Both the position numbers and the translations under genes were made by a program. A stretch of DNA of 64,000 nt from Amphibalanus amphitrite (lineage: Eukaryota > Arthropoda > Thecostraca > Balanomorpha > Balanidae), in NCBI RefSeq assembly GCF_019059575.1, contig NW_024881846.1:310001-374000 (forward strand). Direction: 5' to 3'. Below are positions 16,824-63,419 of the stretch, piece by piece. Under the pieces are notes generated by a model. That model was given only the letters and a program-made list of their open reading frames with translations, searched no databases and had not been told where the DNA came from. How positions within the stretch are numbered: the stretch's first letter is position 1; the number at the start of each line of letters is the position of its first letter.

Positions 16824-18104
16824 CAGGGGTGGAGCTTCCTGTACAGTTGGTGCCTGTTGGGGCGGCTGCCTCACCAACTTGCCATTTTGCAATTTGCCCC
16901 AATTGTTTTGCCCCACCAACTTAAACTGATTCGCATAATAATGTTGCTTTGTAAGTTGTAACTTATTCTTTTTTTGGCATTGAGGAGCTTTGAAATATCT
17001 GTGTAATGCATGATATTATCTCTGTAATGACAAGAATTGATTCGTTTAAGCAATTTATTTAATTTAACCCGCGCACCGACGGGGGTCTGCGCCAACTTCG
17101 CACCGACGGGGGGGGGGGCGGATGACCGCCCCCCCCCCTGAGATCTCGAGAACGAAGCAAGATAGCGACAAGCGGTAAACGGCATCGGATACGCACGGAC
17201 AAGGTCTACAATTTTTACTAGGTCACTTTCAGGTCAGGTCAAAGATGACGTCACAGGGGTCGAAAAAGTCAAAATGGCGGCGCTAGATATGGAGAGAGTT
17301 TTTCTCGAATAACTTTCGAATTAGTCAAGATAGGAACAAACTAAGGGTAGCATCGTGATCCTCTCGTCAATCCGCATCGAATGATATATATGTTGACCTC
17401 GAAAGGTCAAGGTCAAAGGTTGACCTCAGGTCACGTGACCTCGAGGTCATCATGTATATCATTCGATGCGTCTTGACGAGCTGAACACAATGAGACCATC
17501 CGCGCGGCTGTATCTTGTTCCTGTATGGAGTTATTGGCAAAAAACCGCTGGTGACCTTTGATGACGTCACATGACCTTACAGCTGCCCAACAGCAAAACA
17601 GACCTCAAGGTAGTGAAGGCTGATCGTATATGAAGTCATGTATGGTATATGGGGCCATTCCGACCCGTTTTAGTGGTAAAAACAGGGAGTTGATTTTTCC
17701 CCCATTGACTTATAATGGGGAGGTCGCGAAATTGACCTGACCTTAGGTCACCGATATCAAAATTCCGAGATACACAAATTGTAGCTACTAATGACCTTAT
17801 AACATCCTGCGACTTTCAAAGGCCTCCGACATCTACTGTAGCTGATAGCTCTGGCACGGTGACAAAGTTGCAAAAAAGTGACTTGAGGTTGGGTCATTCA
17901 AAGTGACCTGGTGACCTGACCTTGAAAGTTAGGAGGTTCAAACTTGCACACCATGTGCAGAATTGATGAGAGAATAGTCATACCAAATTTCGCGGGGGGG
18001 GGCGGATATCCGCCCCCCCGTCGGTGCGCGGGTTAACAATCGGACATTGTAGGAAGGCTTAGCGACCTTTTGCCCCACCAACTTCCCTGGGAAAGCTCCA
18101 CCCA
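16824..18104. mobile_element. Probable inverted-repeat element hosting E1
   Basis: Left end CAGGGGTGGAGCTTCCTG, right end the imperfect complement CTGGGAAAGCTCCACCCA. CCCCACCAACTT recurs near both ends, and the TTAA element E1 lies between. A truncated relative is at 50745-50800 on the other strand. No target duplication is clear, so the superfamily is open. Confidence 0.5.
17068..18032 (+). mobile_element. TTAA element E1
   Basis: 965 bp between TTAA at 17064 and 18033. Left end CCCGCGC-ACCGAC-GGGGG, with the word ACCGAC repeated 27 bp further in. Right end is the complement with GTCGGT. Both ends carry a G-run/C-run hairpin. The body holds dense AGGTCA/TGACCT half-sites, TGACGTCA (17246) and an inverted CATCGAATGATAT pair. 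It matches E10 and E12 in reverse orientation. No transposase. Confidence 0.9.
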
Positions 18105-20285
18105 CATAGGCGGCGGAACGGGGAGGGCACCGGGGCACCGTACCCCCTTTGATTTTGGCATTTTAACATTAGCCCTATGGGCTAATGGAAAGAATGGGAC
18201 TAAAAGTCCTGATCGCTTTTGATCTTTGTATGTACGTGCTACTGGGGCTCGGTGATTACCCATATTTGTATGGATTCATATGTAATTACTTTTATTAATT
18301 GTGCTGTTGTAGGATTATCGTGACGACTGGTGTTCCAGCGCGCTGCATTTGCCAGTGGCCTGCTCTCTAAGTACGCACAGATTAGGCGTATTGTGCCGCC
18401 TTCGCCATTTCCGGATGTTCCCGCAGCTAACACAGTTGAGCCTCCCCCATCAGCGCTCCACAGCACCGACTGCTCTCCGTCAGTCCCCGGGGACTCTCCG
18501 TCCGGCGGCGCGACGACGCTCGTCGCCGCCGCGTCGTTATCGTCGAGCGTCAGACGGCGGCGGCCAGCGCGGCGTAATGCGCCGCTTTCGCCGCCTCAGT
18601 CCCCTTAGTTCCACTTGGAGACGCCGCTAACCGCTTAATCCTATCAGCCGGTGCCAGCGGCGCGCCGCCACTGCGGCGTTCAGTGGCGCGGCGGCATTCG
18701 ACGGCGCACGGCGCCGATCCGTGTGTGGCTCGCTTTTCCGATGTCCTGACGGTTGAGCTGGCTCGGAATGAAAGAAGACTGCGATGGCGCGTTCTATCTT
18801 CAGAGCGGAAATGGAAGTGGTCAGCCGAGAAAAGCCCTTAGCCCTGGCGGTGTCACGTTTAAAGATGGAGCTGGTTCTGAAACAGATGGCAAGGCAGGCC
18901 ACAGTCCCTGCACTTGTGAAAAAAAAAACGTTCCAATAACTCCGGGCAATTATCGTCTGCGCAGCATTCCATAAAAGCACAAATTCCGAAAGTTCTGGTC
19001 AAGATCCTTAGTTAGGTATAGGCATTGTTTATTATCGCCAATGAAATCAAGGACGTGACTGTATTATTAAATATTTTATTTACTAACTTATTCTCGCTTC
19101 CAGAGGATAACAATTAGATACTTGATTGGTATGTAAGTTTTTCTCAGTCTAAAATTGAAATTGATCGATTGTAGACGTTTCTTGCGAGAAATCAGCATGA
19201 AGATCGCAACTTACAAACATATCCTTTTTTTTAATTCCAAGTTTGGATGCATGATTATTTCATGATTCCTAATGCATAGTTGATACGAGTATACTTGGAG
19301 GAGCCACTAATGAACCCAAATGCCAACATAAGGACTCTGTGATCTCTGGTGACATGTGTCTGTGATTAAATCTCCGCAATTAAAACCATGTCTTGCTAAA
19401 TACTCAATGGACCGGAGTACATGACAGGTGTAACCGCCACCAAACCCAAACAACAGAGCGCCCTTCGGAGGGGTCATTTGTCCGCGGCGGCCGTCACTCA
19501 ATGACGGGCGGCTGCCACGCGAGCGTTTCAGGTGTCACACCGGCCGCATATCTGTGACAAATGAACCGGCCCTAATGGGGCGCCGGGCAGCACACGGGAG
19601 GTGGACGGCAGAGCTAATGGGCACCACCGACAACCTAACTGGCCGCTCGTCAGGCCAGCACCGGACGGAAATGATTGGCAGGGATGTGCCGAGTGTTTAT
19701 CAAATTGATAGTAAATATTAGCGGAACTTTGAGTTTTTTTTTTCGAAAATGGCTTACTCTTTTTGGAAAACACGGCTGTTTCTTGTTGTCCAAACATTAT
19801 GGAGTCTTGAGATACCCAACTGACCTAAGTAGGAAGAGGCCGTTCCATAGCTCCGCATGGGTGTAGTTTTCCAAAAATCATTGGGGGTGCTCAATAGCTT
19901 TCAGAAAGGCATGCCATATTTTTCGTAGTTAATTTTTTTCAGCTGTTCTTTTTGACTGTAGCCATCAGGCATCATGCAAGGAATGATGTCAAATCAGTTC
20001 GAGAGCTTGTTTTAATAGCGCCACTGTAAAACGATTTTGGCTCACCCAATGCATTAATAATCATATAGAAGTTTTTGAACATATTTCAGAACACCCTGAG
20101 TTTAAAATTTAGATTCAGGCCCTACCGGACTTTTGGTAGGTCCGCGCTTAGGCAGCCTGGTCTGCATAGCTCTGCACGAATGAGCTTATATTGAGGGCTA
20201 TCCAACATGACGCCTGACGGGACAGGCTCGATGGTTACTCTCCGGACATGGTTCTCGTGAAATATTGCATTTTGTCCCTGGAACT
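18105..20285. other. Intergenic, no gene seen
   Basis: G+C-rich patches at 18340-18730 and 19430-19660 separated by A+T-rich sequence. No supported exon, RNA gene or element. Short frames on either strand match nothing known to me. Confidence 0.5.
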
Positions 20286-20289
20286 TTAA

Positions 20290-20713
20290 CCCTCGCCGGC
20301 ACAGGCCACTTTGCGTCCTTCGATGGCACAAGGGGGGGGGGGGGGGTTGGTAAGACCACACCCCCTCGCGTTTGGCCTCTGATCGAGCTAGAGCTTCGCG
20401 GAAAAAAACGAGCGTGTTGCCCGTCACGAGAAAAAGCCGATGATACCCAATTTTAAGCTTGCAAACGCCCGGCTAATGCGAGCCGACATACGCCGAATCG
20501 CGATTCCGGCCAAACATGGTCTCGGAAAGGAGGTCACAGGTCAAAGGTTATTTGGGTCAGGGTCATGAAATTTTCAGGGTAGGTGTAAAATTGATCAATG
20601 CGAGAGTACTGAAAGTTTCGTCCCGATCGGCCTTTTTTTACGCGAGTTATTCGCGAAAACCCTTAGGGGGGGGGGTTGCATCACCCCCCCCCCCCCCCCT
20701 GTGCCGGCGAGGG
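20290..20713 (+). mobile_element. TTAA element E2 (deleted relative of E7)
   Basis: 424 bp between TTAA at 20286 and 20714. Ends CCCTCGC-CGGCACA and TGTGCCG-GCGAGGG, with a second inner TGGCACA at the left. Both termini and flanking body match E7 (31034-32480), but the roughly 1-kb middle is missing. Its right TTAA is shared with E3. Confidence 0.9.
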
Positions 20714-20717
20714 TTAA

Positions 20718-23211
20718 CCCGCGCCGGGCCGGTGCTCTGAGATTCCGCGCGGGGCGGGGGGTGTCTGAACACCCCCCGCCCCTTCTAACTCGGCTCCTGG
20801 GCAGAGGCGGCGGAAGGTATTTTGGGATGGGGGGGCACACCTGATCCTTCCCGGAACCTAGGGTACCCCCAAATCTAGTTTTCTCACCGGTTTTAGGCCA
20901 CTTTTTTCACCCCTTGGCCTTTACAACGAAAAATCGAAACGAAAACATTTGCAAAAAGTGAGATATCCCGTCTCATCTGAGTCAAGGAACTACCTTTTTG
21001 GTAACTTGGAATAAACGTTTAAAGCTTTCACACATGAGCTGTCAAATCAGGTATAGAGGGGGATTTTTTTACTTAAATAGGTATTGTCTTCCATTCAGCT
21101 TTTCTTTGAGGCCCACGGCCGCTAATATAGGGAGGACAAGCTGCCCCGACGGTTCCTGGCCCTATGAAACTTTGTGGGGGCAGCGCCTGCGCCCCCCACG
21201 GCCCCAGAGTTGTGGGGGCAGGCTACCCCCATGCTGCCCCCCGGCTCACGAGTCTATGCCGGCTGGCGTCTGGCAGAGTCGCGGGGAAAGGCCTGTGGCA
21301 CGCTCAGACGCGCTTCTGTGACGTCCGCATGCCGGGCCACTCGCGTTCCGTCCTACTCTTCCGGTTACCGGTAGCTCGTAGATAGCTGCTTGATTTCTGA
21401 GCATTATGTGTGGAGGGCGTTTGGTGGAAATGTATGATATTTAGAGAATGAATATGTGCTTACATGTTGTCACAGTCTTCTGCGTTAGAACGCTCCATAA
21501 TGAAGGTTGTTTCTGGTTAACATTTCGAAAAGGTAATAAATCTATGAAATTATGTTGGTAGATTTCCGATTTCGATTCCTCCGGTTGGAGGGCCTCAAAT
21601 ACCTACATTACGAGCCCTCCCCCCGCCGAAAAGTTGGAGGGGCTCAGCCCCCGCTAGCCCCTCCAGCCGGTTCCCGGGAACCGCCCCTCTGGTTCCCGCG
21701 CCACTGCGGCAAGTCCAGTTCAAATACGTGTAGCACGCTGTGGCTGTCACCGTGACTGTTGTTCGCGTTGAACAACTTGCTTCCTTTAAACCAATGACGT
21801 CATTAAAGTTAGCCAATTATTGGCTATTGCAAACCTTTTTGGTTGGTAACACTCGCACTGCAAAATGCTAGCCAATGTGATCAAAATATGTACGACGACA
21901 TTGACAACAATATCAATCCATTCCAAATTACTCGCTCTATTAACTTAAAAAGGTACTCAGCCAAACTGGCATATGTTCATGACGTAGTATGGAAGTATTG
22001 TGGTACTTCGTCGATAACAATTTGGGGGGGCAAAAAGATATGTTTGCACCCCCACCCTGGAAGATGGGGGGCGCCGTGCCCCCGCTGCCCCCCCGCTTCC
22101 GCCGCCACTGCTCCTGGGCCACGTAGCTACGCGCGGTAAGCGACAATCAAAAGAACGTCCAAAATAAGGACGAAAACACTTCGGGTCATTTTTTGGGTCA
22201 GGTCAAAGGTCAGGTCACCAGAGGTCACCAAAGGTAAAATGTTGACTATTTCAACATTTTGGAAACTGTCAACGGCTATCTCGGGAACCGATAGAGCTAC
22301 AGCGCCGAGGAAAAGCGCATTCGATAACCCTTTTACAGACCTTTCTGAGTAATGTTCTTAGATTTGACCTCAGGTCAACGGTTTAGCCTCCAGAGGGCAA
22401 AAACTCCAAAAATAACCGTTTTTACGAAAAATGTTTTTTCGGCAATAACTTTTGACTCAAAAGAGCCATGACATTACTTTTGCCAGCATCGTGTTCCTCT
22501 CGTCGAGACGCGTCGAATGAACTATAATTTGACTTTCAAAGGTCAACTTGAAAATTTGACCCCAGGTCAAGGTCATGACCTGACCGGAAAAGGTCATGTG
22601 GCTTATCAGTCGGTCCACAACGTCGAGCCAAACACACCTAAGGCGTTTTCAGCGCTCTAGCACGCCTCTAGCAGAAGTGATTAGCGAAAAACTGTTAGAT
22701 TCTGTTCGTGACCTGAGATGACCTCGGGGGACATAATCAGGGGTCACAGTTGCCATTTTTCGGTTCAGTGCGTCAATTTTACCTACATCTCGATGTTTGA
22801 GAGTGTCTAGAATGGCGTTCGTGCAAATCAGACGTTTTTCAATTTTCTCCCATTGACTTATAATGGAGAGGTCGCAAAATTGACCTGACCTTAGGTCACC
22901 GATATCAAAATTCTGAGATAAACATTTTATAGATAATGTTGCTCTTATCAATTGCTGAAAGTTTCAAGGCAATCGATCAATCGGTGTAGCTATGACGAGC
23001 ATTCTTTTTTTCTGAGGTGAGGTCACTTGGCGTGACCTGGTGACCTGACCTAAGGCGACCTGGGTCTAAAATTTTCATAACATGTGCGGAAAAGATGCCC
23101 GAACAGGTGTGCTAACTCAAAAACGGCGGCGCGGAGCGCCGCCGTTTTTGAGATATCTGCGAAAAACCGCGGGGGGGTGTTCAAACACCCCCCCCCCCGG
23201 CCCGGCGCGGG
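20718..23211 (+). mobile_element. TTAA element E3, interrupted by a hAT element
   Basis: Left end CCCGCGC-CGGGCCG after the TTAA shared with E2; right end CGGCCCGG-CGCGGG followed by TTGA, a mutated TTAA. The inner left word is CGGGGCG. The body resumes after the hAT insertion at 22119 and holds many AGGTCA half-sites. It ends with the hairpin GGCGGCGC-GGA-GCGCCGCC and a GGGGGTGTTC-type terminal hairpin. Confidence 0.82.
20802..22110. mobile_element. hAT-type non-autonomous element in E3
   Basis: 1309 bp with an exact 8-bp duplication CTCCTGGG at 20794-20801 and 22111-22118. Ends CAGAGGCGGCGGAAGG and GCTTCCGCCGCCACTG are imperfect inverted repeats. An 8-bp duplication with CAG...CTG ends is typical of hAT. 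No transposase frame. Its segment near 21140-21300 resembles 48690-48810. Confidence 0.88.
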
Positions 23212-23323
23212 TTGAAACTGAGTCCATCAAAGCCCGCCTCATTCATACCGATGTCATGTTCTTGTACGCACTCCTTCACCACCGTACCGACTGCGCTTAC
23301 CTGGTATCGATGTTTGGCCTTAA

Positions 23324-23415
23324 CCCTCGCCGGCACAGGGGGGGGGATGCAACCTTCCCACCCTCGGGGGGTTTGTTGTAACGGGGGGTTTGTTTGTTTG
23401 TTGGGGGGGGGGTGT
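23324..23415. mobile_element. Truncated TTAA-element end
   Basis: TTAA at 23320 is followed by CCCTCGCCGGCACAGGGGG and ATGCAACC, matching the single-word end of E2/E7. Similarity then stops in G-rich sequence (GGGG and TTTG runs to 23411). The rest of the element is absent. Confidence 0.75.
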
Positions 23416-23589
23416 GGTAATTTATTCAATGTATATTATCATTTCTCTTAGTAACTGAATTGAGTAAGCATACATAGTATTTGCACAGGCGCGTAACCAC
23501 CACTGGGGACACTGGGGACCGGTCCCCAGTAACTTTTGGGATACTGGGGACCGTCCCCAGTAAACCGACGACCTCCTGAATTTGCTTAA

Positions 23590-24056: not shown

Positions 24057-24361
24057 TTAAATAGCCAAATATTTTCTCTAAATCGACGTGAAGAGTAATA
24101 TGTAGTCAACGGAAGATAAAACTATGGATGTTTTGTTTAGCCAGCGCCCGGGTGGGCCTCTCAGCCAACCTCGCCACGGTGGGGGGGGGGGGGAGCTTTT
24201 GGCCACACCAGATTATCTCGGAAAGTAAGCAAGCTAGAAAGGCGCGGTGAAAAGCAACAGATAGCTCGCTCGCTACAGTATCTTTCAGAATTAGGTACCT
24301 ATGTAATTTTTGATCAGGCGATCGCTGAGGTCTTTGTAGGTCACCAAAAGTAAAATTTTAA

Positions 24362-26176
24362 CCCTCGCCCCGTTGGGGGGGCATTTTGGCCCCCCTGTGG
24401 TTTTTCCTGAATAGCAAGAAAACGGCGGCGCGCAGCGCCGCCAAATTTTCAGTACCTTTCCGGACATCAATTTGACACCTTCACACCAAATTTCAAGTCT
24501 TAGGTCACCTTAGGTCAGGAGTTACTGAGGTTAAACTGAGGTCATGTTCGAGCAAAAATGAGCAAAAAACATGCAATCTTGAAACGCTCACCAAATCTAC
24601 AGTTATCAAGTAATTTCAAAGTTCTTTATATGGTCTAATAGACAAAAAGCGGCGCTACAAAACTGCTATCTCGGTTTTTCAAAATTTTGGGTTTTTGACC
24701 CAAAAAAATTCAAAAAATTGATTTTTTTAGAAAAACTAAAAAAAATCCAAAATTTTTCCGAATTTCGAAAAAACAGGAATATATGTGATAGTCCCTGCGC
24801 TCTTCTATATACATACCAAATTTCAGATCGATATCTCGTTTTTTGGCCAAGTTATAGCGAAAAAACTGTTCAAAAATGATGACGTCAAATTTTTGAACTC
24901 AATTTTTAGCGATTCTAGACCTCGTACGGCAAAACAAAGACCACCATTGAACTCCCCGTGACGAGCTGCATCGATTCGATACCCATTTTATGCAAAAATA
25001 TCAACTTTGAAATTTGACCTTATTTGACCTGACCTTGACCTGACCTTGACCTGAACTTGACTAAAACGTGACCTAAGCTGGCCCCAAAGGCTGCCTGACC
25101 CACATAATCGCATTTGTCATGTAAAATGGACCATAAAACATGTATCACACGACACTTTCATATTGTGACCCCCCAGTGACCTGATCTCAGTGACCTGACC
25201 TGGTATCAGTGACCTCAACTAGCAAAATATGTGTTTGAAGAACATTTCCCCATCGATGATTTTCAATGAAATGCATTTTACTCGATTTTACAACGCATTT
25301 CTTGAAATGCCTGTAAACGGTGAAAATTGGACCTTTGACCTGACCTGTGACGTCATCGGTTTGACCTAGGTCAATAAAATTGGGTCACAAGGTAGTTCCC
25401 TGATAGGGCTATCCAACACCGTTTGCCGCTTGTCGCTACGTTGCGTGGTTCTCGAGATCTTAGGGGGGGGGCCAAAATGGCCCCCCCCCAACGGGGCGCG
25501 TTGCTCGGCAGAGCCCAACGGGGCAACGACCTTTGCTCCCAATTTGGACAACTTTTCACAAACCGGTGCATAAGTCAGGAACCAAATAGGTAGAGCTGCA
25601 GTGCTGCTGCTGCTGGAAAGCGCATTCGATAGCTCTTTCAAAGGCCTTTCTGAGTAATGTTCTCAGATTTTACCTAGGGTCAACGGTTTAGCTTCCAGGT
25701 TGGCGTTTTTGCGGAAAAGGTTTTTGTATCATAACTTTTGACTTGAAACTTGTATGAGTTATGACGCTGATTTTACCGGCATCGCGTTCGTTTCGTCGAG
25801 ACGGGTGGAATGAACTAGGTAAGTAGGTATAAGTTGACCTGAATGATCAACTTGAAAATTTGACCCCTGGTCTAGGTCACGAAAAAGGTCATGTTGCATG
25901 TCATTCAATAGTTATTGTTGAGCTGAACAAATTCATGGTGTTCTAAGCGCTCTATCACTTGTTTCTACCTAAAGTTATGGTTAAAAACTGTTGGAGATGT
26001 TTCATGACCTGAGATGACCACAGGGGCATAGAAGGGGTCATAGGTGCAATTTTCCGATTCATTTTGTCATGTTTACCTGTGTCACGTGGTTTGAATGTGT
26101 TTTCGGCCAAAAGAAAAGCATTTCAATTTTCTCCCAATGACTTATAATGGATGTCGCAAAATTGACCTGACATTTT
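24362..26176 (-). mobile_element. TTAA element E4 plus truncated relative
   Basis: TTAA at 24358, then CCCTCGC-CCCGTTG-GGGG. The double-word end is at 25480-25524 (CAACGGG twice), where the element stops short of its final GGGTTAA and joins another TTAA-type body (25525-26176) resembling E3. It has the GGCGGCGCGCAGCGCCGCC hairpin near 24424 and TGACGTCA near 25350. E4 is the uninterrupted relative of E6. Confidence 0.82.
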
Positions 26177-26178
26177 GC

Positions 26179-26220
26179 GTCCCCGTAGCTCAGTTGGTAG
26201 AGCGTTGGACTCCGCTTGGT
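26179..26220 (+). pseudogene. tRNA-derived 5' fragment
   Basis: GTCCCCGTAGCTCAGTTGGT and then AGAGCG resemble a tRNA acceptor strand, D arm and A box. The anticodon arm does not fold and no GGTTCRA B box follows. Either a broken tRNA or the head of a tRNA-derived SINE. Confidence 0.6.
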
Positions 26221-26559
26221 GAGAGCACGCGTTCCCATGACGTTCTTTGAACAGATTTCATTAATCATTTCACGTGAAATTTCACGTGGAATCGGAAGTC
26301 AAGCCGTTCTTTACCGATTCCACGCGGAATTTCACGTGAAATCCCGCGGAATTCCACGTGAAATACGGCAATTGGAAAAGCTTGTCCCGAGCGCTTTTTT
26401 AAGATGGCGACGCCCAGTGGAGGAGGGAATGTGAATGTGTGCGTATGATATGGACTGGTTTTGCGGAATAGGTTACTAAAATGTTAGGTACCGTTTTTGC
26501 CAAAAACCTTTTTAGGGATTGCTTCCGCTGTTACTAACCAGCAAACTGGTCTGGAAATA
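26221..26559. repeat. Cluster of TTTCACGTGAAA-type palindromes
   Basis: 26262-26366 carries several CACGTG cores in ATTTCACGTGAAAT-like palindromes. Two of them lie in an imperfect hairpin around GGAATCGG...CCGATTCC. Related palindromes recur at about 27930-28010 beyond E5. No gene is seen in the remainder. Confidence 0.6.
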
Positions 26560-26563
26560 TTAA

Positions 26564-27751
26564 CCCGCGCCCTGGTGTGGGTCTGAGCCACCTTCGCCCT
26601 GGTGGGGGGGGGGCCAAAATGACCCCCCCCGTCTAACTCGAAAACGAAGAGGGCTAGGAAGACGCGGAAAAAAGCAAACGAAAGCCCATAACAAGTACGT
26701 TCGAAAGTATTTCGGTCATTTTTTCGCTAAGGTCAATATTGAGGTCGCTAGAGGTCATCATAGGTCAAATTTCAGTGTTTTCGGTGTTGCCGGACATATT
26801 CCGCTGTAGCCCGGAAACTAGAAGAGCTAGAGAGCCGCGGAAAAAAGCAATCGATAGCTCTTTTCAAGCTCTTTCGCCAAGGTTCGTCAGATTTGACCTC
26901 AGCTCAACGGTTTGGCCTACAGAGGTCATGCAAGGTCAACTTGGCAAATTTCGTTGAAAATGTTTTTAACTATAGCATGCATTCACGAGAAAATAGAGAA
27001 ACGATTCATGCACCATCGTGCTTGGCTCGTCGAGACGCGTCGAATGATATATAGTTTGACCTCGAAAGGTCATTTTGAAAATTTGACCTCAGGTCAAGGT
27101 CATGACCTTACCGAAATAGGTCATGCTGCATATCATTCGATCCGCATTGACGAGACAAACACGATAAACGTCGAACGGAGTCTCTATCTCTATTCAATAA
27201 CAAGTAAGTGCAGAAAAACCGCTGGTGACCTCTGGTGACCAGGGAGATGACCTAGCGTGACCTCAGCGAGGTCACAAGCAAATGGTTTCACATGGGCTGT
27301 GATTTGCTGACCCAAGACACTTCAATAACGAAATATAGGAACAATCACGCCCGATTTAGCTGAAAAACAACTACTTTTCGATTCTCCCATTGACTTATAA
27401 TGGGGAGCAGCGATGACCTGACCTGACCTTAGGTCACATTTATAAAAAATCCGAGATAGCCATTTTGTAGAGCTGGGTGACATCTTCAAGTACTGTAAAT
27501 TTTACATCGATCGGATAAAAGCTGTGCCTTTGAGAGAGCTTTGAACTTTTTTAGAGGTGGTGTCAGTTTTGGTGACCTTGTGACCTGACCTGACCTGACC
27601 CGAACCCCCAAAAAAAGGACATGATGTAAAAATGTTGAATAAACAGCTATACAAAGTTTCAGGGCGCTAACTCAAGTGGTTTCTGAGTTATCGCTGAAAA
27701 ACCACAGGGGGGGGCCAAAATGGCCCCCCCCCCCCCCCACCAGGGCGAAGG
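26564..27751 (+). mobile_element. TTAA element E5
   Basis: 1188 bp between TTAA at 26560 and 27752. Left end CCCGCGC-CCTGGTG with a second CCTGGTG after CCTTCGC; right end CACCAGG-GCGAAGG. Both hairpins read GGGGCCAAAATG...CCCC. Body rich in TGACCT half-sites with a CGTCGAATGATATA motif near 27040. Confidence 0.9.
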
Positions 27752-27755
27752 TTAA

Positions 27756-29436
27756 CCGGTAGGTATTCTTACAAGCTGTGTGCACACCAGAGACTTTTCT
27801 ATAAAAACTCCATCTGCCTCTTATCACTTAAGATGCATCATGTAACTTACCGACAATACAAGCAACGCTAAGTTCAATGCATGTTTCACAAATCTGGGCA
27901 TATTACATTTATGAAGCCTCTGCGACAATTACGCCGTGAAATTCCCGTGCGGTCGGCAAAGAACGCATCAGCTGACTGAGCCGTAAAATTTCACGTGAAA
28001 TTTCCGTGCAAGCCTTAGCCTCCCCGTATGGTTGCGGTTGGTGGCAGGCCGTAGCCAGGCGAAGTCAGTGAGGGGACCGGCCGTGCGTGGCTATGTGCGC
28101 ACGTTAAATTTTGGACTCTAAATTCTGCCATAGAACTGGAATTGCGCGATCGGAGGGTAGAGGGCAGGGTCACCGCAACAGCTTCGCTTAGCGGTGGCTC
28201 TGTCCTTGTGAGTCCTTCCTATCAGAGGGTTCGGACTAATTTTTTTTTTAAACATTAGGTCCCCGATGTGAAAACTTTGAGATATATGAATTGTTCATAC
28301 TGATTTCCTCATGCAAAAGCTCGAGTTTCAAACTTCTGGGATAAAACTGTAGGAATGACAGAGTCACAAAGTTTTTTGGAGGCATGGCTACTTTACTTTA
28401 CCTGGTGACCTGACCTTAGGTGACCTGGTGTCAAAATTTTCACACATGATGCGAAATTGAGGTATCATAAGCCATACCAAATTTCGCGGCGGTGCGCGCC
28501 GCGGTTTTCCTTACACGCGCAAAAAAAAACTGGCGGGTGTGGCCAGAAACACCCCCTCCCCCCCCCCCCCACTTGGGCGAAGGCTGATCCTGAAATATAA
28601 TATTTGGTCTTCGCGGCCCTCCATGTGGTCCCCAGTAACTTCAGAATCGTGGTTACGCGCCTGTATTTGCATGATTCACTAAGCTCATTACAAGTACTAG
28701 GAGATGGAAATACTGATTATCGAGGGCCTTGAGTCAGCTGGAAATGTTTTGAGGAGGCTGTGGGTGCTTTAAGGAGGCAGGGGGTGCTGAGCTCAGGATT
28801 GGGGGTGCTTGAGCACCCACAAAGAGATATAAAGTTACACTTATGGCTCCGATCATGCAAATGTATATAAAAAAGTTTCAATGCCGATTTCATAGTCATC
28901 CCTCGGCTCGAACCGCGTTAGAATTAAACGTTCTTCAAATGTTTTATTCTTGGCGGTTCAGAATAAAACGTCTTTATCATGGATGCGTTTCTATCCTATC
29001 CCGCCTCACTTTCATTCATCGCATTCCTCATGCGCTTTAAGAATATCGGTAAGTAGATATTGACTCGTTTCGACTTTTATCGATGTTCGAATCTCGCAAA
29101 AACACATCAATAGGTTTCAAAATACGAGGCGGCACAAGTGTTCTTCATCCACATCACCGTCTTCACGTCTCTGCCGTCTTTTTCGGTCGTCGGCCGTCGC
29201 CGTCGCTATCGTCGTATGCCGTGTCCGGCGGCAGCTGGGCGAGTTTCCGCCCTGTTCAGCTAACGAGCCGCCCGGCCCGGTCCGCCACAGACTCCCATCC
29301 ATGTTTAATGCGCCGCGATCGTCGGTGACACGCCACCAGCGCCACAGCCGCCGCCGGCGCCGCCACAGTCGGCTACCAACGTCCCATCGCGCCGGACTCA
29401 GAACGGGATGCACGCCTCTGAACAGGAGACACATAA
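27756..29436. other. Intergenic with a truncated TTAA-type end
   Basis: About 28250-28586 is the single-word half of a TTAA-type element (half-sites, GGTGACCTGACC, a C-run, then CACTTGGGCGAAGGCTGA as a mutated end); its other half is missing. 29140-29400 is G+C-rich, with a GAACGGGATGCACGCCTCTG fragment of the 32862 array next to E6. No gene recognised. Confidence 0.55.
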
Positions 29437-29891
29437 CCCGCGCCCTGATGGGGGGGCCATTTTGCCCCCCCCCCCGTGGTTTTTCTTAAATAGCGAGAAA
29501 ACGGCGGCGCGCAGCGCCGCCAAATTCTGGGTACCTTACCGGGCATCAATTTGACACCTTCACACAAAATTTCAAGTCACAGGTCACCTCGGGTCAGGAG
29601 TTATTGAGGTCAAACTGAGGTCATGTTCGAGTAAAAATGAGCAAAAAACATGACATCTTAAAACGCTCCCCAATTCTACAGTTAATAAGCAATTTTAAAG
29701 TTCTTTAAGTGGTTGTGTAGAGAAAAGACGGCGATACAAAACTGCCATCTCGGAGTTTTGAATTTTTGGATTTTTGGCCCCCAAAAATAAAAAAATTGAT
29801 TTTTTAGAAAAACTCAAAAAATTTCCGCATTTTTTTTTCGAATTTCGAAAAAAACGGAATATATGTGGTAGTCCCTATGATCTTCGATATA

Positions 29892-30691
29892 CCGGGTGGC
29901 CCAGAAAAAACGTTCCCAATTTTAAATCAATATTTCTCAGAAAGTGATGAAGATACAACATTGAAACTTCCAGTAGTCAATGCGACATATGTTTTCAGTG
30001 AATGGTACGATTTTTATGTTATTCGGTCAATTACTTTTTGAACGGTTCGTGTTTCTAGCATGCCATGTAAAAATCACTTTTTTGCTCTGATGTTTACCAA
30101 AAATGTGAGTGAACGGGCCACTTCCATCTCGGCACCACGGCCTACAGCCATGACTGCTACTGGCAGCTAGTCTCATTGGTGGTTCAGGCCTCAGGGTGAC
30201 ACATTCCATCTAGCTTTTTTCCTTATTCGGTCGATTTATTATTTGATCTTCTTGAAGGGAGGGCGATCAGCAGTAACCCATGCACCGTGCCACTCCTTCG
30301 CCTCGAAACAGGACTTGTGTTGAAACGAATGGCATCCATTAACACAACTTTGGCTTAGTATTTGAATATTTGGCACATAAGTGTGACAAAAATATATAAA
30401 ATAGCAACACACGTGCTGGTATCATTCAAACCGTTTTTTTTTTATTTTTTTTCTAACATGGTACGTCTAAGTCAATAATTACTTCCGTTCAACAACGGCA
30501 AAAAAAGCAAAAACGTCTTACTTGATTCAACATAAGATTGCTGGCTTGAAAATGATGGTACAGTGTTATAATTTGGCATACCAATGCGCAAAGAAGTGAC
30601 GCAAACTTGATGAAAATTTTGCCTCGTTATTTGCACTCGAATTTGAGATATTGGCCTCCAAAGTTCGGAACGTTTTTTTTGGGCCACCCGG
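29892..30691. mobile_element. Mariner-type non-autonomous element
   Basis: 800 bp, TA on both sides. Inverted ends CCGGGTGGCCCAGAAAAAA and TTTTTTTTGGGCCACCCGG. No transposase domain. The homologous E4 position near 24810 (CTTCTATATACATACC) lacks it, which gives an empty site and confirms a TA target duplication. Confidence 0.92.
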
Positions 30692-31033
30692 TACATACCA
30701 AATTTCAGATCGATATCTCTTTTTTTGGCCAAGTTATAGCGAAAAAACTGTTAAAAATTGATGACGTCAAATTTTTTTAACTCAATTTTTAGCAATTCTA
30801 GACCACGTAGCGCAAAACGGAGACCACCATTGAACTCCCCGTGACGAGCTGCGTCGAATCGATACCCATTTTATGCAAAAATATCAACTTTAAAATTTGA
30901 CCTCATTTGACCTGACCTTGACCTGACCTTAACCAAAACATAATCTGAACCGACCCCGAGGGCTGTCTATCCCTCATAATCGCATTTGGCATATAAAATG
31001 GACCATAAAACATGCATCACATAATATTTTTAA

Positions 31034-49700: not shown

Positions 49701-52700
49701 TAAAACGGGTCGGAATGGCCCCATATACCATACATGACTTCATATACGATCAACCTTCACTACCTTGAGGTCTGTTTTGCTGTTGGGCAGCTGTGAGGTC
49801 ATGTGACGTCATCAAAGGTCACCAAAGGTTTTTGGCCAATAACTCCGTACAGGAACAAGATATAGACGCGTGGATGGTCTCATTGTGTTCAGCTCGTCAA
49901 GACACATCGAATGATATACATGATGACCTCGAGGTCACGTGACCTGAGGTCAACCTTTGACCTTGACCTTTCGAGGTCAACATATATATCATTCGATGCG
50001 GATTGACGAGAGGATCACGATGATGCCCTTAGTTTGTTCCTATCTTGACTAATTCGAAAGTTATTCGAGAAAAACTGTCTCCATATCTAGCGCCGCCATT
50101 TTGACTTTTTCGACCCCTGTGACGTCATCTTTGACCTGACCTGAAAATGACCTTAGTAAAAATTGTAGATCTTGGCCGTGCGTATCCGATGCCGTTTACC
50201 GCTTGTCGCTATCTTGCTTCGTTCTCGAGATCTCAGGGGGGGGCCGAATCGGCCCCCCCCCGCCAGTTTCTTGTCCCGGCGGAGCCCGCCAGGAATAGGG
50301 TTAAGTGACTATGCTTAGAGCTCCTTCTAAAGTTAGGTCACTTGACATGACCTGGTGACCTTGCTTTTAGCGACTATGGTTTGCATTTTTTAGAGCACGT
50401 GTAAGAGCAATGCACCAAAAGGTTTGCCCCTCCCGCTCACCCCCTTCCATCCCCCGCAAGAAAAAAAAACAGAAGCTCGTAGTGGCACATTTTTCGGATT
50501 TTTTTAACCGCATATCTGAAGAGACGTCCTGGCGCGGGTAAATCTCACACGTGACAAAAAGGTTGCAAGTGATTGGCATAGGTACTAAGTTCCTACTAAG
50601 GAAGTGTTCTTGAAATGCTGCGCCGAAGGCGCGCGAAATTTTTAAAACAATCTTTTCCTCCGCTTTTAGGCACATCTTTTATATGCTCACTGTTCAAAGC
50701 TCCTCTCGCTCTTTTACCAAATTTGAAGGTGTAAAAATATCTAAAAGGTTCGGTGGGGCCGCTGCCACAAAAACTGTATAGGAAGCTTCGCCCATGGGTG
50801 ACAATGTAGACATCAGATACACATCAGATCACCGTATCGGATTGACACCGGATCGCGAGATGCGTAAAAACAAGGACAAGCGCACAACGAGAAGGCAGCA
50901 GCAACAGAAAGATACTCGTAAACCATAACAGGACTGTTCCTCATGAGATAGATTAGCCTCCTCGGGCTTCTCATCCAAATTACCTCAGACCAGCCCTCAT
51001 GGCCTTCTCACAGATGCATACAATACATTGTTGAGTACCTACACAACCAGTTTCAATCACCGAAACTCCAGATGCCTGCTGTTGCGGCCGAACCTGTTGA
51101 CAATACTTAACCCGCGCCCCGCTGGGCTATTCAGCCATACGCGCCCTGCTGGGGGGGGGGGGGGGGCAGATTCTGCCCCCCCTGTCTAACTTCCGAACCG
51201 ATGGTCGTAGAAAGACGGGGAAAACGGCAATCGAAAGCTCTCAACAAGGCGGATCTTAAGAGCCCAAATTTTTTTGCTTAAGTAGGTCAGAGGTCAGGTC
51301 AAGGTCAGGTCAAGGGTACAAGGTGCAAGTTTCTACAGTATCGGCCGTGCACCGTAGTTGCCGAAGAATGGACTGAGACTGATTGCCCAAAACGTGTTCT
51401 TAGACTACCAAGACAATATTCGTTGCATACAATGGCATTCAAAGGTCAAGGTCAAGGTCAGGTCAGGTCATGTCAGGTCACCGAAAAACAAAATATAGAA
51501 AAGGGCATGTGCGACACATGTTTTATGGGTCATTTTACTCATAGAATTCAATAGGCACACTCAATAAGTGATATGGACTACCTCTGGATGAATTTCAGGT
51601 CGAGGTCAGGTCAAGGTCAGGTCAAGTGAGGTCAAATTTTGAAGTTGGTTGTTAAGGCCCAAAAAGGTGTCTATCTGATGCAGTTTTTCACGGCGAATCG
51701 AATGGTGCTATTTTTGTTTCCGTACGAGGTCTAGAACTTCCAAAAAATCATTTTTCAAAATTTTTGTGTGTCGTGACGTCATAAAAATTTGAATAACTTC
51801 CACATTTTTGAACCGATTCTTCTAAAAATTGGTATGTAGGTGCATATAGACCACTTCTTTGACATATATTCCGGTTTTTTCGATACACTCAAAATTTTGG
51901 ATTTTATAAATATTTTCCCAAAAAAGTCAGTTTTTTGAAAAAATTTGGGCCAAAATCAAAAATTTTCAAAAAAACGAGATAGCCATTTAATAGACAAAGT
52001 AGAATGACGTATAACCTTTTTTGTTACGTCTTGATTCCTTTAAAAATGAAGATGTTAGCGGCGTTTGAAATTTTCCCATTTTTTAGGCGAAAATGGCGAA
52101 CATGACGTCACTAAAACGTCATTTTCTCAAACATTTTCCGACGGATTTCGCTCAAATTTTCAGGGAACGTGTCAAATTGATGTATGATAAGGTACTGAAA
52201 GTTTGACGTCGCTGGCGTAACGCGTTTAGAAGTTATTGGCGAAAAACGGGAGGGGGGGCAGATTCTGCCCCCCCCCAGCGGGGCGCGGGTTAATCGTGAT
52301 TCATATATTTAGATGTCATGATGCACGCAAAGTAAGCTCAATCCCTTAACCCTATTCCTGGCGGGGGGGGGCCTCCTAGGAGCCCCCCCCCCCCTGAGGT
52401 TTTTTGGTTATATCTCCCAAACGCGTTGAGCTAGGAAGCTCAAATTTTCTGACTTTTCCTAAAAGGCTTCTACGCAACATGTCTGAAAATTTTGAGTTGA
52501 TCTGACCTCAGGTCAGGTCACCAGAGGCGGTTTGGTGACGCTACCTCAGAAAAGTTTGCAATCACGCCAGAGCTAGAGTTTTTGACCGATCAATTTCTTC
52601 TCTTCAGGGTTTAGTTAGGGTACCAGTATGTGCAATTTGTTTATCTCGGAATTTTGATATCGGTGACCTAAGGTCAGGTCAATTTCGCGACCTCCCCATT

Positions 52701-55700
52701 ATAAGTCAATGGGGGAAAAATCAACTCCCTGTTTTTACCACTAAAACGGGTCGGAATGGCCCAATATACCATACATGACTTCATATACGATCAACCTTCA
52801 CTACCTTGAGGTCTGTTTTGCTGTTGGGCAGCTGTGAGGTCATGTGACGTCATCAAAGGTCACCAAAGGTTTTTGGCCAATAACTCCGTACAGGAACAAG
52901 ATACAGACGCGTGGATGGTCTCATTGTGTTCAGCTCGTCAAGACGCATCGAATGATATACATGATGACCTCGAGGTCACGTGACCTGAGGTCAACCTTTG
53001 ACCTTGACCTTTCGAGGTCAACATATATATCATTCGATGCGGATTGACGAGAGGATCACGATGATGCCCTTAGTTTGTTCCTATCTTGACTAATTCGAAA
53101 GTTATTCGAGAAAAACTCTCTCCATATCTAGTGCCGCCATTTTGACTTTTTCGACCCCTGTGACGTCATCTTTGACCTGACCTGAAAATGACCTTGGTAA
53201 AAATTGTAGATCTTGGCCGTGCGTATCCGATGCCGTTTACTGCTTGTCGCTATCTTCCTTCGTTCTCGAGATCTCAGGGGGGGCCGAATCGGCCCCCCCC
53301 CCCCCCGCCAGTTTCTTGTCCCGGCGGAGCCCGCCAGGAATAGGGTTAAGACCAAAGACGTTTTTATGCATGGTAGAGCGTAGATAGTTTTGGTATGCTT
53401 CATTCATTGTGCTGAGCCTGAATGCACGTTCATTTGTGGCAATTTCCACAGGCAAGACATCAAATATGTGCAAGAGAACGGCTAAGTTGGGAAACATGCC
53501 AAAGGAGTAGATAAATGATAGGAGGGCAGCGATCAACGGAGGTCGCCAATAGGTAGAAGGGCTGCGATCGACAGGAGGGCGCTAATAGGCAAAGGAGAGC
53601 CCCGATCAACATCCCGAGTTTCGACAGGAGGGCACCGATAGGTAGGAGAGTGGCGAGCAGCAGGAGGGCGCCAATGGATAGAAGGGCGGCGATCAACAGG
53701 AGGGCGCCAATAGGACAGGTAGGAGGACTTTGATCAACAATCAACGGGAGGGTGCCACCAGGTAAGAGGGCGGCAAGGAACAGGAGAGCACCAATAGATA
53801 GGAAGGTGGCGATAAACAGCAGATCGCCGATAGGTAGGAGGGCGGTCATTAACAGGAACTCGCCAATGAGTAGAAGGGTGACGATTAACAGGAGTGTGGC
53901 AATGGTGAGGAGGGCGCCTTTGCCCAAGAGGGTGACAATGAACAGGAGGGCGCCTGTGAGAAGGGCGCCGATCAACAGGAAGGTGCCAGTGGTTAGGAGG
54001 GCGGCCCCGATTAACATTCAACAGGAGGGACTGGGGAACCAATAGGTAGGAGGGCGCCAATGGCTAGGAGGGCGGCAATCAACAAGATGGTGCCAAAGGG
54101 AAGAGGACGGCCATAAAAATTTCACATGAGGCGCAATAGGTAGGAGGGCACCAATAATTAGTAGGGCGCCGACCAGCAGAAGGGTAGAAATGTGTAGAAA
54201 GGTGGTGACCTACAGGAGGGTGCACCTTCGGGTGAGAGGGCGCCTATTTACTAGGAGAGCGCCAATAGGTAAAACTACGCCGATCAAATGAGGGCGCCAG
54301 AGTGGGCAGGAGGGTAGCGATCAACAGGCTTACATAGGCGACTACCGCTACGCTTAGACAGCTACAGCCTACAAATGCGGACGCGGTTGGAGGGCGCCCT
54401 CCAACCGTATTTTCCCTGTAAATACATTCGCGATTGGGGCGCCCTCCAGTCGCGATTGTTTTTTTTTTTATTCCATTTTATCACAATTGCATTTGCGATT
54501 GGAGGGCGCCTTCGGCGCCCTCCAATCGCAAAGGGCGCCTTCGGCGCCCAAGGGGGGGCATGGCCCAGTGCCCCCCCCTGCCTACGCCCCTGAGGTGCAG
54601 ATTTGGTCAAATTAGGTGCACTCGCCGGATAGCCCGTCTTGAAAACGGCTGTATATTCCAGATACCTGGCTCTAATGTCTTACAGAATCATGGCCATTTT
54701 TTATCAGGTCACCATTGAGGTCACTGGAGGTCACCAAAAGTAAAACTGTCACGAACAATATTCCCAACTAGTTGACTATTGTTTTCGAATCGGCGACCTC
54801 GGGGACGAATAAAGCTACGGGGCCGTAGTAACGCGCATTCGATAGTTCAGTCATGGATGAGATAATAACAGTGTTATCTATCTCATCCATGGTTCAGTTC
54901 AAAGCTGTTTCCGAATAATGTTATCATAATTCAAATTCAACTAAGGATTAACGGTTTAGCCTCCAAGTCCAGACAAGATGTCAAAAACTCAAAATTTGAC
55001 GTGTTTTGCCGAAAACGTTTTTACGCTGTTAGGTGCTTTTGACAATAAGCTTTATTACGTTGACTATACCGGTATCGTCTCTCGTTGAGACGCGTCAATG
55101 AGACGTTGACCTGGAAAGGTCAACTTAAACCACGCATGACTAGGGTATTTTCCATAACGTGGTTGGCGGGGGGGGACTCTACAAAGCCCCCTTCTATCTC
55201 CGAAACTACAAGGCCGATTGTCAAAATTCAAACGGCAGCTAATAGCCCTGGACAAACTTTCGAGCAAATCCAAATTTCATTGACCTCGAGGTCACCTATT
55301 ACGTCACAGGTCAGGTCAAATTAAAAATCATCAACATTTTGGCTTGTTCACAATTTGGGCTCTGGCCGCCGGCTTTTAAGTCCGATCAGGCCCGTTTTTG
55401 AGTTACCCACTCGTTGATATATGCTTACGCAACCCTGTGATTACTGAACTTGTAATTCGAATTTTTCAGCTCAAGGCCAGGTCATCCTAGGTCACGGAAA
55501 TGCTAGGTATATCATATAGGTATCGGTCACGTGACACATGTTTTATGGTTTATTTCAGCCACAAATTTCGTAAACAGTGGCGTCTGTGTCATTTTAGGTC
55601 ATTTTCAGCTGAATTTAGCTGAGGTCAGGTCACTTCAGGTAAAAAATGTCAAATTTTTAAAATTTAAAATTTAAAATTTATTTTTTTTTTTCAGCTAAAA

Positions 55701-58700
55701 AGGTGTCTATCAGATGCAGTTTGAGCTCAGGAACACGATGGTGCGTGCTATTTATATTGCTGTACGACGTCGGAATCGCACCAAACATTGGATTTGAAAA
55801 ATCTATAATTGTGAAATGTTGACTATGATACGTATAACTTGGCCATTTTTGAAGATATCAGGCTGTCTTTCTAGATTAGGTCAACGGTGAGCGTGCTTTT
55901 AACATATTCTGGTTTTTCGAAAAGGTAAAAACTTTAAAAAAAAATATATATTTTTGTTATTGTATATGTATATTTTTCCAAATGTTCCAAATTTGGAAAA
56001 TCCGAGAGAGCAGTTTGAAAGCAACGTCTATTCTCAGTCCACTCATGCAAACAAAAAATCTAGCTTAAAGATTGAGCTCTGGACTTCTTGAGAGCGATTG
56101 CCGTACATAGTTCAATTTTAATTATGCTTCAAAATCGGCCGACATGACGTCACTCTGACGTCATTTTCGGCCGACCTCCGCTAGCTATAAATTTGAACTT
56201 TAGACACAAGTTGTCAAATTGATGCCGGTGAAGTTACTGCAAGTTTCGTGCCGATATGTCAATGGTTTGGAAGATATTGTCGAGAAACGGGAGGAGGCTC
56301 TGTAGAGCCCCCCCCCCCCCCACCAGTCATGCGCGGGTTAAATTCAGTACCTGACCTGACCTGATCTGCCGTGACCTCCCGCAGGTCAGGCCGCTGTGAA
56401 CCAGCTGGGCGGTGTGTTCGTGACGTTACCTGACCTGCCTTGACCTCCCTTGCAGGTCAGGCCGGTGTAAACCACCTGGGCGGCGTGTCCGTGACCTGCC
56501 GTGACCTGCCGTGACCTGCTGTGACCTCCCCGCAGATCAGGCAGGTGTGAACCAGATGGGTGGTGTGTTCGTGACCTGACCTGCCGTGACCTCCCTTGCA
56601 GGTCAGGCCGGTGTGAATCAGCTGGGCGGCGTGTCCGCGACCTGCCGTGACCTGCCGTGTCCTCCCTTTCAGGTCAGGCCGGTGTGAATCAGCTGGGCGG
56701 CGTGTTCGTCAACGGCCGCCCGCTGCCCGAGTACGTGCGCCGGCGGATTGTCGAGCTGGCGTTGCTCGGCGTTCGGCCGTGCGACATCTCCCGACAGCTG
56801 CTCGTCAGCCACGGCTGCGTCTCAAAGATCCTCACCCGGTTCTACGAGACGGGCAGCATCAAGCCGGGCGCCATCGGAGGCAGCAAGGCCAAGGTAGGCC
56901 GAGGTCTGCTTAGTAGCCAAACTAACAAAGGCCGAAGTTTGCATGGTCGTGAGGCTAAGGTAGGCCGAGGTCCGGCTGTAGGGCCAATGTAGACCGAGAT
57001 CTACATAATAGTGAGGCTTAGCTAGGCCGAGATTCGGCAGTAAGGCCAAACGGCGGGCCGAGGTCCGGTAGTGGGCTAAGGCCGGCCGAGTCGTTCTGGC
57101 TCTGGCAATACTTTCATTCAACCGTTCCACCCAAGTTTTATCTTAAAAAAGCAGATCAAAATAAGATAGTCAGATGTTATAGCTTTGGTCATTCGAATAT
57201 CCAATTAGTATGGTATTTTGTATTCTTAGATTAATGAGGAGATGACTTAAGGCTGCAACAGCCCTGCCGTGACACCTTGCACTATGGCGTGCTGGCGCCG
57301 TTGATTGTCGCCGCTCGTTCGCAGCAAGTGGCCACTCCGACGGTGGTGAAGAAAATCCTGCGTATGAAGCAGGAGAACCCTGGCGTGTTCGCCTGGGAGA
57401 TCCGTGACCAGCTGCTCAGCCAGCGGGTCTGCAACCCGAGCAGCATCCCGTCCGTCTCCAGCATCAACCGTATCCTGAGGAACAGCGGCGTCTGGACGCC
57501 AGGTCCCGGTCAGCCGGAGCCGGCCGCCGAGCCAGGTAAGTGACGTCATAACAGAGTAGGGACGTCATAGTGGAGCTAATACGAGTCAAGTGGGTGACCG
57601 CTGAGGTAGTGAAGATGTCATGAAACACTAAAAGAATTTGCACTTTAAAAACGACCTAAGGTCAGCTAGGGTCACAGCTCAGTGTCAGAGGCCGCAGTTC
57701 ACAGACCAGCTCCTCGGCTGGTGTCACGGGGCAAAGTAGGGCGGTACTCGGATCCACCTGCCGTGTCAGCCGACCGTGCCTCCTTTGAACCCCGGCGTGG
57801 CCGGTCGGAGTGGACCGCCTCGCCGCGCTATCAGCGGGAGCCGCGGTGATTTTCTGAGGTCGCACCTGCCCTCCGTATGAATAGTTGAAGCGGTCCGCGT
57901 GGCATCGGTCGCACTTCTCACCTGGTTTGGTGACGGATACATTATTCACGGGCTCCGGCGGCGCTCCTTTGTATGGTAAACGACCTATAACCGCGGCGGC
58001 AACCACCTGCCGGCCGCCAGCGGAGCGACCGACGGTGGCACGCCGCGTGAAACAACAGTGCACCGGACCATCGGCCACGGCGGACATCGGCCAACGCAGC
58101 CGGGCAGCTAAATGGGGCGCTAATTGGCGCCCCTGTTTGTACTTCGTTATGATAAGGAATAGGGTCATTTGATGTTTAATTGAGGTACGCTGTAAGTTAT
58201 GGGGTTAACAGTGTTTGAACTCTCACTGTTCCTCAGAGCATCAAATAAATCGATCGTCGGAATGTTCATGTTCATATCTTCGAAATGGGAATGAAGGACG
58301 GAAAAATCAACCCGAAGTCACGACGTATGATATAATGTAAATACGAATACTGACAAACCAAACTATGTGCAATATTTTTTGGACATAGCGTACACCAAGC
58401 ATGAAGCTCTCTTGTCGATGGGTTGAACACGTTTATTACGAGCGAGCGAGCGCAGCGAGCGAAGTGAGCCTTTTCAATATAACGGAAAAATCTCTGTTCT
58501 GAGATTTTTCTCTCTAAAAAATCTCTGAAAAATCTCTGAGCGGCCCGGCCCGGCCCGGCCTGTAACGCTTTTGAGAGGCTTATATCTCAGCAACCGCTGG
58601 AACGATTGGCCTGCGGTCTTTTTTGTTGGGTAGCCCCATCCCTTCTACCCCGTAATTGACTACTTTTGATACATCTCAGTGACCGTCGTGGCACGTGCCA

Positions 58701-62222: not shown

Positions 62223-62226
62223 TTAA

Positions 62227-63415
62227 CCCGCGCCCCACTGGGGTCTGCGTATAACACGCCCTACTGGGGGGGGGGGGGGCTATTCATAGCCCCCCCCCCC
62301 TCCTAACTCCGAAACTACTGGGCCGATCGTCAAAATTCAAACGGGGTCTGATAGCCCCGGAAAAACTGTCGAGCGAAACCTAATTTCATTGACCTCGAGG
62401 TCACCGATGACGTCACAGGTCAGGTCAAAGTAAAAATTATTAGCATTTTGGCTTGTTCACGTTTTGGGCTCTGGCCGCCGACTTACAAGTCAGATCAGGC
62501 TCATTTTTGGTTCACACACTCGTGAACAGATGCTCTAGATACTCTGAGGGTACCAAACTTGTACTTTGATTTTCAGGTCAAGGTCAGGTCATCACAGGTC
62601 ACGAAAATATTATATCATCCATCGGTCACGTAACACATGTTTTATGGTCCATTTAGGTCAGAGATTTCGAATTTGATGTCGTCTGTGTCATTCGAGGTCA
62701 TTTTGAGTCAAATTTAGCTTAGGTCAGGTCACTTTCAGGTCAAAAAAGGTCAAATTTTGAAGTTAAAATTTTTCAACAAAAAGGGTATCTATTGGATGCA
62801 GTTTGAGCTCAGGAACACGATGGTGCTATTTATATTGGCGTACGATGTCAAATTCATGCTGAAAAATTGATTTGAAAAATTAATAATTGTTAATTTTTTG
62901 CAATAATGCGTATAACTTGGCCATTTTTGAAGATATTTAGTTAAAACTTGCTAGAGTTAGTCATAATAATGCGTTCTATAACATATATTCCGGTTTTTTT
63001 CGAAAAGTCAAAACATTTTCGAAAAAAAAATGTAAAAATATAAATTTTGAGTTTTATTATATGAAATTTTCGAAATTTTCAAAATTTTGAAAATCCGAGA
63101 TAGCAGTTTGATAGCGCAGTCCATTCTGAGTCCTCCCATGCAAAGAAATTGGATCTAGCTTAAAAACTGAGCTCTTGGGAGCGATTGCCGCGGTTCAATG
63201 TTTTGCGTCGAAATCGGCCGAACATGACGTCACTCTGACGTCATTTACGGCCGACCTATGGTAGGTACGAAGTTCAAATTTTGACACAAGGTGTCAAATT
63301 GATGCAGCCGAAGGTACGAAAGTTTGGCGTTGATACGTCAAGCGGTTTGGAAGTTATTGCAGAAAAACGGGAGGGGGGGGCTATAAATAGCCCCCCCCCC
63401 CCAGTGGGGCGCGGG
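62227..63415 (+). mobile_element. TTAA element E14
   Basis: 1189 bp between TTAA at 62223 and 63416. Left CCCGCGC-CCCACTG with an inner CCTACTG; right CAGTGGG-GCGCGGG. Hairpins GGGCTATTCATAGCCC and GGGCTATAAATAGCCC. Body homologous to E13 with TGACGTCA (62407 and the 63226-63243 pair) and many half-sites. Confidence 0.94.
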
Positions 63416-63419
63416 TTAA

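Follow-up and report, generated by a model that had tools for sequence, protein, structure and literature searches.

Family-specific end words and shared bodies in TTAA-flanked elements of Amphibalanus amphitrite with a piggyBac-like end layout

The piggyBac element of the moth Trichoplusia ni, which has a CCC tip, is among the closest described counterparts of the subject of this work, a set of 15 TTAA-flanked elements (E1 to E15) in a 64-kb stretch of Amphibalanus amphitrite DNA (contig NW_024881846.1; this whole stretch is called the window). In the parts of the piggyBac study drawn on here, the transposase is described as contacting bp 7-16 of the terminal inverted repeat (TIR), and the C-terminal zinc domain as binding a palindromic internal repeat of the left end (bp 17-33), where a narrowed groove is centred near bp 25 (PMC7351741). 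At the right end, which measures 63 bp, 17 bp are inserted and the repeat is duplicated, such that bp 34-63 are almost the same as bp 7-35 of the left end at an offset of 27, and in cells the native enzyme both excised and integrated only the asymmetric end pair (PMC7351741). This asymmetric plan is not universal in the piggyBac superfamily, as shown by piggyBat of Myotis lucifugus: like the elements reported here it has a short repeat (GCGGGA) just before imperfect palindromes, repeated at the left end, but the passages available on it give the left end three such repeat-palindrome units 44 bp apart and the right end only truncated or reversed repeats without such a palindrome (PMC11707139). 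For one interior under different ends there is a precedent in the CMITEs of Acropora corals, which, as excerpted, share with the present elements the TTAA, the CCC tips, the lack of coding capacity and an interior conserved under different TIRs, one coral CMITE having an interior that resembled another family's (PMC2872659). The initial annotation of the window knew of no named family with matched and doubled end words; since piggyBac carries its repeat once at one end and twice at the other, and CMITEs have a common interior under different TIRs, that statement is not supported. On the analysis given below, the A. amphitrite elements are probably nonautonomous, of the cut-and-paste kind, and mobilised by piggyBac-type transposases with family-specific binding words. 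Known piggyBac biology accounts for most of the pattern; the number of end codes coexisting in 46 kb, the palindromes built of G-runs and the finding of one body under different codes are less expected.

All 14 TTAA elements of the initial annotation were recovered and an older one, E15, which contains E4 and E5, was added; the elements crowd the middle and right part of the window (Table 1). They follow a common plan, in which the doubled end (D) consists of TTAA, a heptamer (mostly CCCKCGC), the word at bp 8-14 from the element end, a spacer of about 20 bp, a second copy of the word and a palindrome with G-run and C-run arms, whereupon the body follows, and the single end (S) consists of the complement of the palindrome, the word, the heptamer and TTAA. 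For comparison, elements were oriented doubled-end first. With nested elements not counted, they range from 432 bp to 2.5 kb in length, and the longest stop-free frame is at most 119 amino acids (aa) in every one of them and 60-113 aa in the 14 elements other than E3; the window as a whole contains 13 open reading frames (ORFs) of at least 150 aa. The reported TTAA is present at both ends in 11 of the 15 elements, one or both being altered in E3 (TCAA at the single end), E4 (TTAA and heptamer both lost at the doubled end), E6 (TTAC and ATAA) and E15 (TTAG and TCAG), and the single end of E8 reads TTAA-TTGTTGC. The termini are 5'-CC ... GG-3', with the exception of the AC end of E13 and of a single decayed end in E4 and in E8. 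The two ends of E15 probably belong to one element, to judge from their word frame and palindrome.

That one and the same word stands at both ends of an element and differs between elements was borne out, with identical outer D and S words in 13/15 elements, the exceptions being E13 (ATGACTA/ATGACTG) and the decayed E15 (CCGGGTG/CCAAGTG). Over the seven positions, mean mismatches within versus between elements (n=15) were 0.20 vs 3.80 for the outer D against the S word, 0.87 vs 4.06 for the outer against the inner D word and 0.93 vs 4.09 for the inner D against the S word, with a chance best inner match of E13 kept in these means. When E12 and E7 were dropped as members of families already represented (n=13), the corresponding values were 0.23 vs 3.78, 0.92 vs 4.04 and 1.00 vs 4.06, and none of 100,000 permutations reached the observed match in any of the three comparisons at either sample size. 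Distances involving the inner copy are optimistic because the best of 15 offsets was taken; in a control with the same choice of best offset, a distance of at most 1 was obtained in 4.5% with the words of other elements versus in 11/13 with an element's own word. The third copy that had been announced is exact in 5/15 (E1, E4, E5, E7 and E9), one change off in 8/15 (E2, E3, E6, E8, E10, E11, E12 and E14) and decayed in E15. Covariation of the heptamer is likewise present and weak, with 0.87 vs 1.96 mismatches reached by 93 of 100,000 permutations at n=15 and 1.00 vs 1.79 reached by 853 of 100,000 at n=13. The doubled end does lie on one side of the body, since the main matches between elements are colinear once these are oriented doubled-end first. 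Chance, or an assembly artefact in G-rich repeats, is hardly conceivable as the source of this pattern: G-runs slip and their length varies between copies, but for the words such an origin is refuted by the permutations, and the bodies, the TTAA sites and a paralogous empty place described below are consistent with one another.

The words are, however, not private to each copy as had been claimed, because E10 and E12 (97.8% identical) have one word in common, together with the heptamer, and E2 and E7 (88-91% identical) have another, which is also carried by a lone end at 23320; hence the words mark families. Nor is it supported that they are specially fast sites. Among the 7 families with 20-bp spacers (21 pairs) the distance per site is 0.50 for the word and 0.48 for the adjoining spacer, and among the 11 families with gapped spacers (55 pairs) it is 0.46 and 0.38, where the gapping flatters the spacer. 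A hypervariable word beside a stable spacer, which would fit E4 and E6, is not supported across families by these values, and differences between elements therefore look like ordinary family divergence. Words common within families and word distances near those of the spacer also speak for pure common descent, according to which a founder's perfect terminal repeats were inherited, only family divergence was at work, and any change in step is the history of the founders. As a full account we find this unlikely, as it leaves unexplained how founders changed three sites in step (E4 and E6) and how a matched end pair came to surround a common body (E1 and E10), and it is largely the selection model minus the enzyme.

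E4 and E6, which are 84-89% identical, are the best single case of three word sites changing in step. The word is CCCGTTG in E4 vs CCTGATG in E6; positions 3 and 5 are altered, identically at all three words, the inner word of E6 carrying one further change, while the spacer between outer and inner word is identical at 19/20 positions. Selection through a changing or a different transposase would account for this co-change, and copying between the sites would also fit. Under copying, template switching between the inverted repeats, or else gene conversion inside the element, would carry the word of one end to the other sites; short inverted repeats can serve as templates for correcting themselves, and both the conserved E4/E6 spacer and the exactness of the words in 13/15 elements suit such a process. 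We nevertheless regard copying as improbable, because E10, E12, E2 and E7 keep matching words beside unlike palindrome centres, a difference that tracts of copying would have been apt to erase, and this argues equally against the gene conversion between ends that had been put forward earlier. Where the palindromes differ, the homology from end to end amounts to only about 18 bp and a G-run, and exact inner copies are rarer (5/15) than exact words at the far end (13/15), although it is the inner copy that lies closest to the outer word. In general, palindrome centres are more alike within than between elements (similarity 0.69 vs 0.18; 0 of 20,000 permutations) in a test of 13 elements, with E7 and E12 left out and the centres trimmed and typed by hand; E10 and E2 are clear exceptions in it, and E7 and E12 also have unlike centres at their two ends. 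Selection for matching ends, which the initial annotation had offered as the other possible cause, is supported and would be the likelier origin of the match.

The comparison of bodies indicates that these move between end-families. E1 has the word ACCGACG and the heptamer CCCGCGC at its ends vs CCTGGCG and CCCTATT in E10 and E12, and its core, from the D palindrome to about position 720, is identical to that of E10 at 627/646 columns. Outside the core, with gaps counted, identity falls to 48/77 columns in the D unit and 157/302 columns on the S side. Realigned alone, the S sides are 52% identical vs a mean of 46% and a maximum of 50% in 200 shuffles, with a local match of 64% over 154 columns; they are therefore distant relatives and not recent copies. 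In E3, an 82-bp patch is 94-95% identical to E10 and E12, and E3 matches E1 at 83% over 125 bp against a background of 40-68% per 41 columns. The simplest account would be that one internal tract was copied from one family into another with the recipient's matched ends left intact, so that no joint replacement of both ends has to be supposed. In the open-licence literature on chimeric, mosaic or cross-mobilised TTAA elements, the report on the coral CMITEs was the only one found in which a single body is flanked by different end codes. These, in the excerpts used, are about 100 bp long with a 75-bp common interior, unlike the elements here with their 0.4-2.5 kb, doubled end and 646-column core (PMC2872659). 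Assignment to the CMITE group was rejected on length, the shortest element having 432 bp, and not on interior sequence.

Two arrangements bear on mobility. When E7 and one TTAA are taken out of E6, the remainder aligns to E4, which is without E7, and only one gap is needed, of 1 base, located seven bases beyond the TTAA; by this alignment E7 has inserted at a TTAA within E6. E2 and E3 abut and have a single TTAA in common, so one of them probably inserted right next to the other.

The relationship to piggyBac that had been suspected gains from the layout of the doubled and the single end, which matches the published piggyBac ends. At the doubled end the offset between the two words is 27 in 8/14, 25-29 in 13/14 and 34 in E8, where 14 is the number of elements with an assigned inner copy, and the palindrome centre of the single end has a median position of bp 26.5 (range 18-35, 15 elements). 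The elements thus resemble T. ni piggyBac, as far as its ends are described in the parts of the source used, in the TTAA target, a repeat near the tip, a palindrome near bp 25 and one end doubled at offset 27, and are unlike it in that here no transposase was found, the word is GC-rich and varies between families, the palindrome arms are G-runs and C-runs, and a third of the elements have CCCG tips at both ends (PMC7351741). By analogy with T. ni piggyBac, the core of the transposase would bind the word, its zinc-binding tail would bind the palindrome, and the doubled end would take an extra transposase dimer. Such an end plan would account for the presence of three words and for the constant side of the doubled end. 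An element would then be mobile only when a single enzyme fits every one of its sites, which would keep the words, and mostly the palindromes, matched within a family and let them drift between families. Bodies would be exchanged between families, most simply through an internal conversion or gap-repair tract that spares the recipient's ends, and one body may in this way turn up between different end codes.

Several observations weigh against this explanation by piggyBac-type enzymes. No piggyBac transposase or fragment was found in a profile scan that covered E3 and eight ORFs outside the elements only: the six frames of E3 (stops as X) matched 0 Pfam families and the eight ORFs yielded only a pogo-type DDE_1 ORF; it is therefore from the ends that we infer piggyBac membership. 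The terminal motif of piggyBac is given as CC[C/T]T in the excerpted source (PMC2872659). A tip of CCCT is found at both ends in 5/15 elements (E2, E7, E9, E10 and E12), but CCCG at both ends in another 5/15 (E1, E3, E6, E11 and E14) departs from the motif, and in the remaining 5/15 the tip is mixed or decayed. The inner copy of E13 is unrecognisable; the D-end palindrome centre, after subtraction of the word offset, lies at a median of bp 29.0 (range 24.0-36.5); and only 10/15 S ends and 9/15 D ends have a palindrome score above the 95th percentile of the scores at 400 random places. The first measurement of the offset broke ties towards 27 when the published offset was already known; a search over 8-70 without preference gave the same offsets, unique in 13/14, with E11 tying at 27 and 60. 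Since the frame CCNRNYR fits 8/13 families, with word positions 3 and 5 varying most, 13 words need not mean 13 enzymes, and some different words may be read by one and the same enzyme. E4 today has no TTAA at the place of the E7 insertion; what it offers is thus the empty place of a paralogue that has diverged, and not of an allele. Finally, all statistics come from this one window with its 15 elements.

The negative profile scan would also suit a Kolobok-type or other TTAA superfamily as the source of the enzyme. Kolobok and KolobokP also duplicate TTAA and, in the parts of the source drawn on, are present in many animals, but Kolobok ends are given there as 5'-RR ... YY-3', unlike the 5'-CC of the elements here, and the long terminal direct repeats of KolobokP are not seen in these elements (PMC9587614). 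The repeat offset and the position of the palindrome fit piggyBac, and we hold a Kolobok-type origin to be very unlikely. Collections other than animal genomes carry little weight here; in viral contigs, both the pattern of the ends and one of 18 bases from the body had 0 matches. The end pattern alone had 6 matches in bacterial and archaeal contigs, likewise no collection of animal genomes, which were taken as chance, no inverted partner (exact 11-base tip) being found within 5.6-8 kb.

Table 1. Positions of the TTAA-flanked elements and of a lone end in the window, with their words
Feature	Position	Strand	Remarks
E1	17064..18036	+	doubled end first; ACCGACG at 3/3 sites; body common to E10/E12
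E2	20286..20717	+	word CGGCACA, inner TGGCACA; E7 family; right TTAA common with E3
E3	20714..23215	+	word CGGGCCG, inner CGGGGCG, offset 25; longest of the elements in which no nested one was recognised
Lone single-type end, CGGCACA (E2/E7) family	23320..23346	+	27 nt, 100% complementary to E2 end
E15	24137..28587	+	old; words CCGGGTG / CACGGTG / CCAAGTG; holds E4 and E5
E4	24358..25533	-	CCCGTTG at 3/3 sites; doubled-end tip decayed
E5	26560..27755	+	CCTGGTG at 3/3 sites
E6	29433..32861	-	word CCTGATG, inner TCTGATG, offset 29; E7 lies within it
E7	31030..32484	+	CGGCACA at 3/3 sites; sits in E6 at a TTAA
E8	34232..35161	+	word CCGTGGA, inner CAGTGGA, offset 34; single-end heptamer TTGTTGC
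E9	46954..47984	-	CCTGGCA at 3/3 sites
E10	49309..50304	-	heptamer CCCTATT; word CCTGGCG, inner ACTGGCG, offset 26
E11	51107..52293	+	word CCCGCTG, inner CCTGCTG
E12	52346..53349	-	E10 family, 97.8% identical
E13	55125..56341	+	words ATGACTA / ATGACTG; no recognisable inner copy
E14	62223..63419	+	word CCCACTG, inner CCTACTG, offset 26; E13 relative (75%)

Other features were observed in the element bodies and around them. Within E6, an insert of about 810 bp (29887-30696) with 37-nt inverted ends of the CCGGGTGGCCCA type looks like a separate miniature inverted-repeat transposable element, and within E7 an insert of about 540 bp (31410-31945) lies between inverted CCAGCCAGCAATT-type ends, noted by eye only. 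Several bodies (e.g. 17200-17950 and 26700-27600) are dense in GGTCA/TGACCT, often as direct repeats, by eye and uncounted; AGGTCA is the nuclear-receptor half-site. E13 ends 11 bp upstream of an array that leads to a PAX paired-domain exon at 56675-56893 (+; Pfam PF00292, 3.1e-39), whose nearest solved structure is Pax5: by eye count, four further tandem copies of the splice acceptor and the first ~35 coding bases precede this exon (56352-56893, +), separated by TGACCTG-rich repeats. The exon and the ORF content given above lend the window the look of animal DNA. The pogo-type transposase ORF at 44262-45527 (-), with DDE_1 and Psq domains, overlaps in part with an arm of two inverted repeats (about 657 bp; 41818-42474 and 43689-44345; 94-96% complementary). 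Among 120 of the 2122 protein matches to this ORF, most had no organism given, and those that had one bore animal names. At 40537-41769, about 40 tandem copies of a 30-bp GC-rich unit keep several overlapping frames open on both strands, the two long ORFs tested having no Pfam match. A tRNA-Cys gene lies at 12720-12791.

The recurrence of a duplicated repeat at a 27-bp offset suggests that the asymmetric piggyBac end is found outside the moth element. Tentatively, and with more doubt than for the involvement of piggyBac-type enzymes as such, the elements may form a recombining TTAA pool of interchangeable bodies and a dozen or so end codes, each with its own piggyBac-type transposase, in which new codes would arise by coordinated three-site change, mainly affecting word positions 3 and 5. 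A transposase that acquires a new DNA specificity must not strand its own ends, and how this comes about is difficult to observe, since it takes a joint change at several sites; such a pool, if real, would naturally record how transposase specificity divides into lines that exclude one another. Where families coexist densely, with a short, readable three-position code and with bodies common to several codes, such a change of specificity could be followed by sequence alone.

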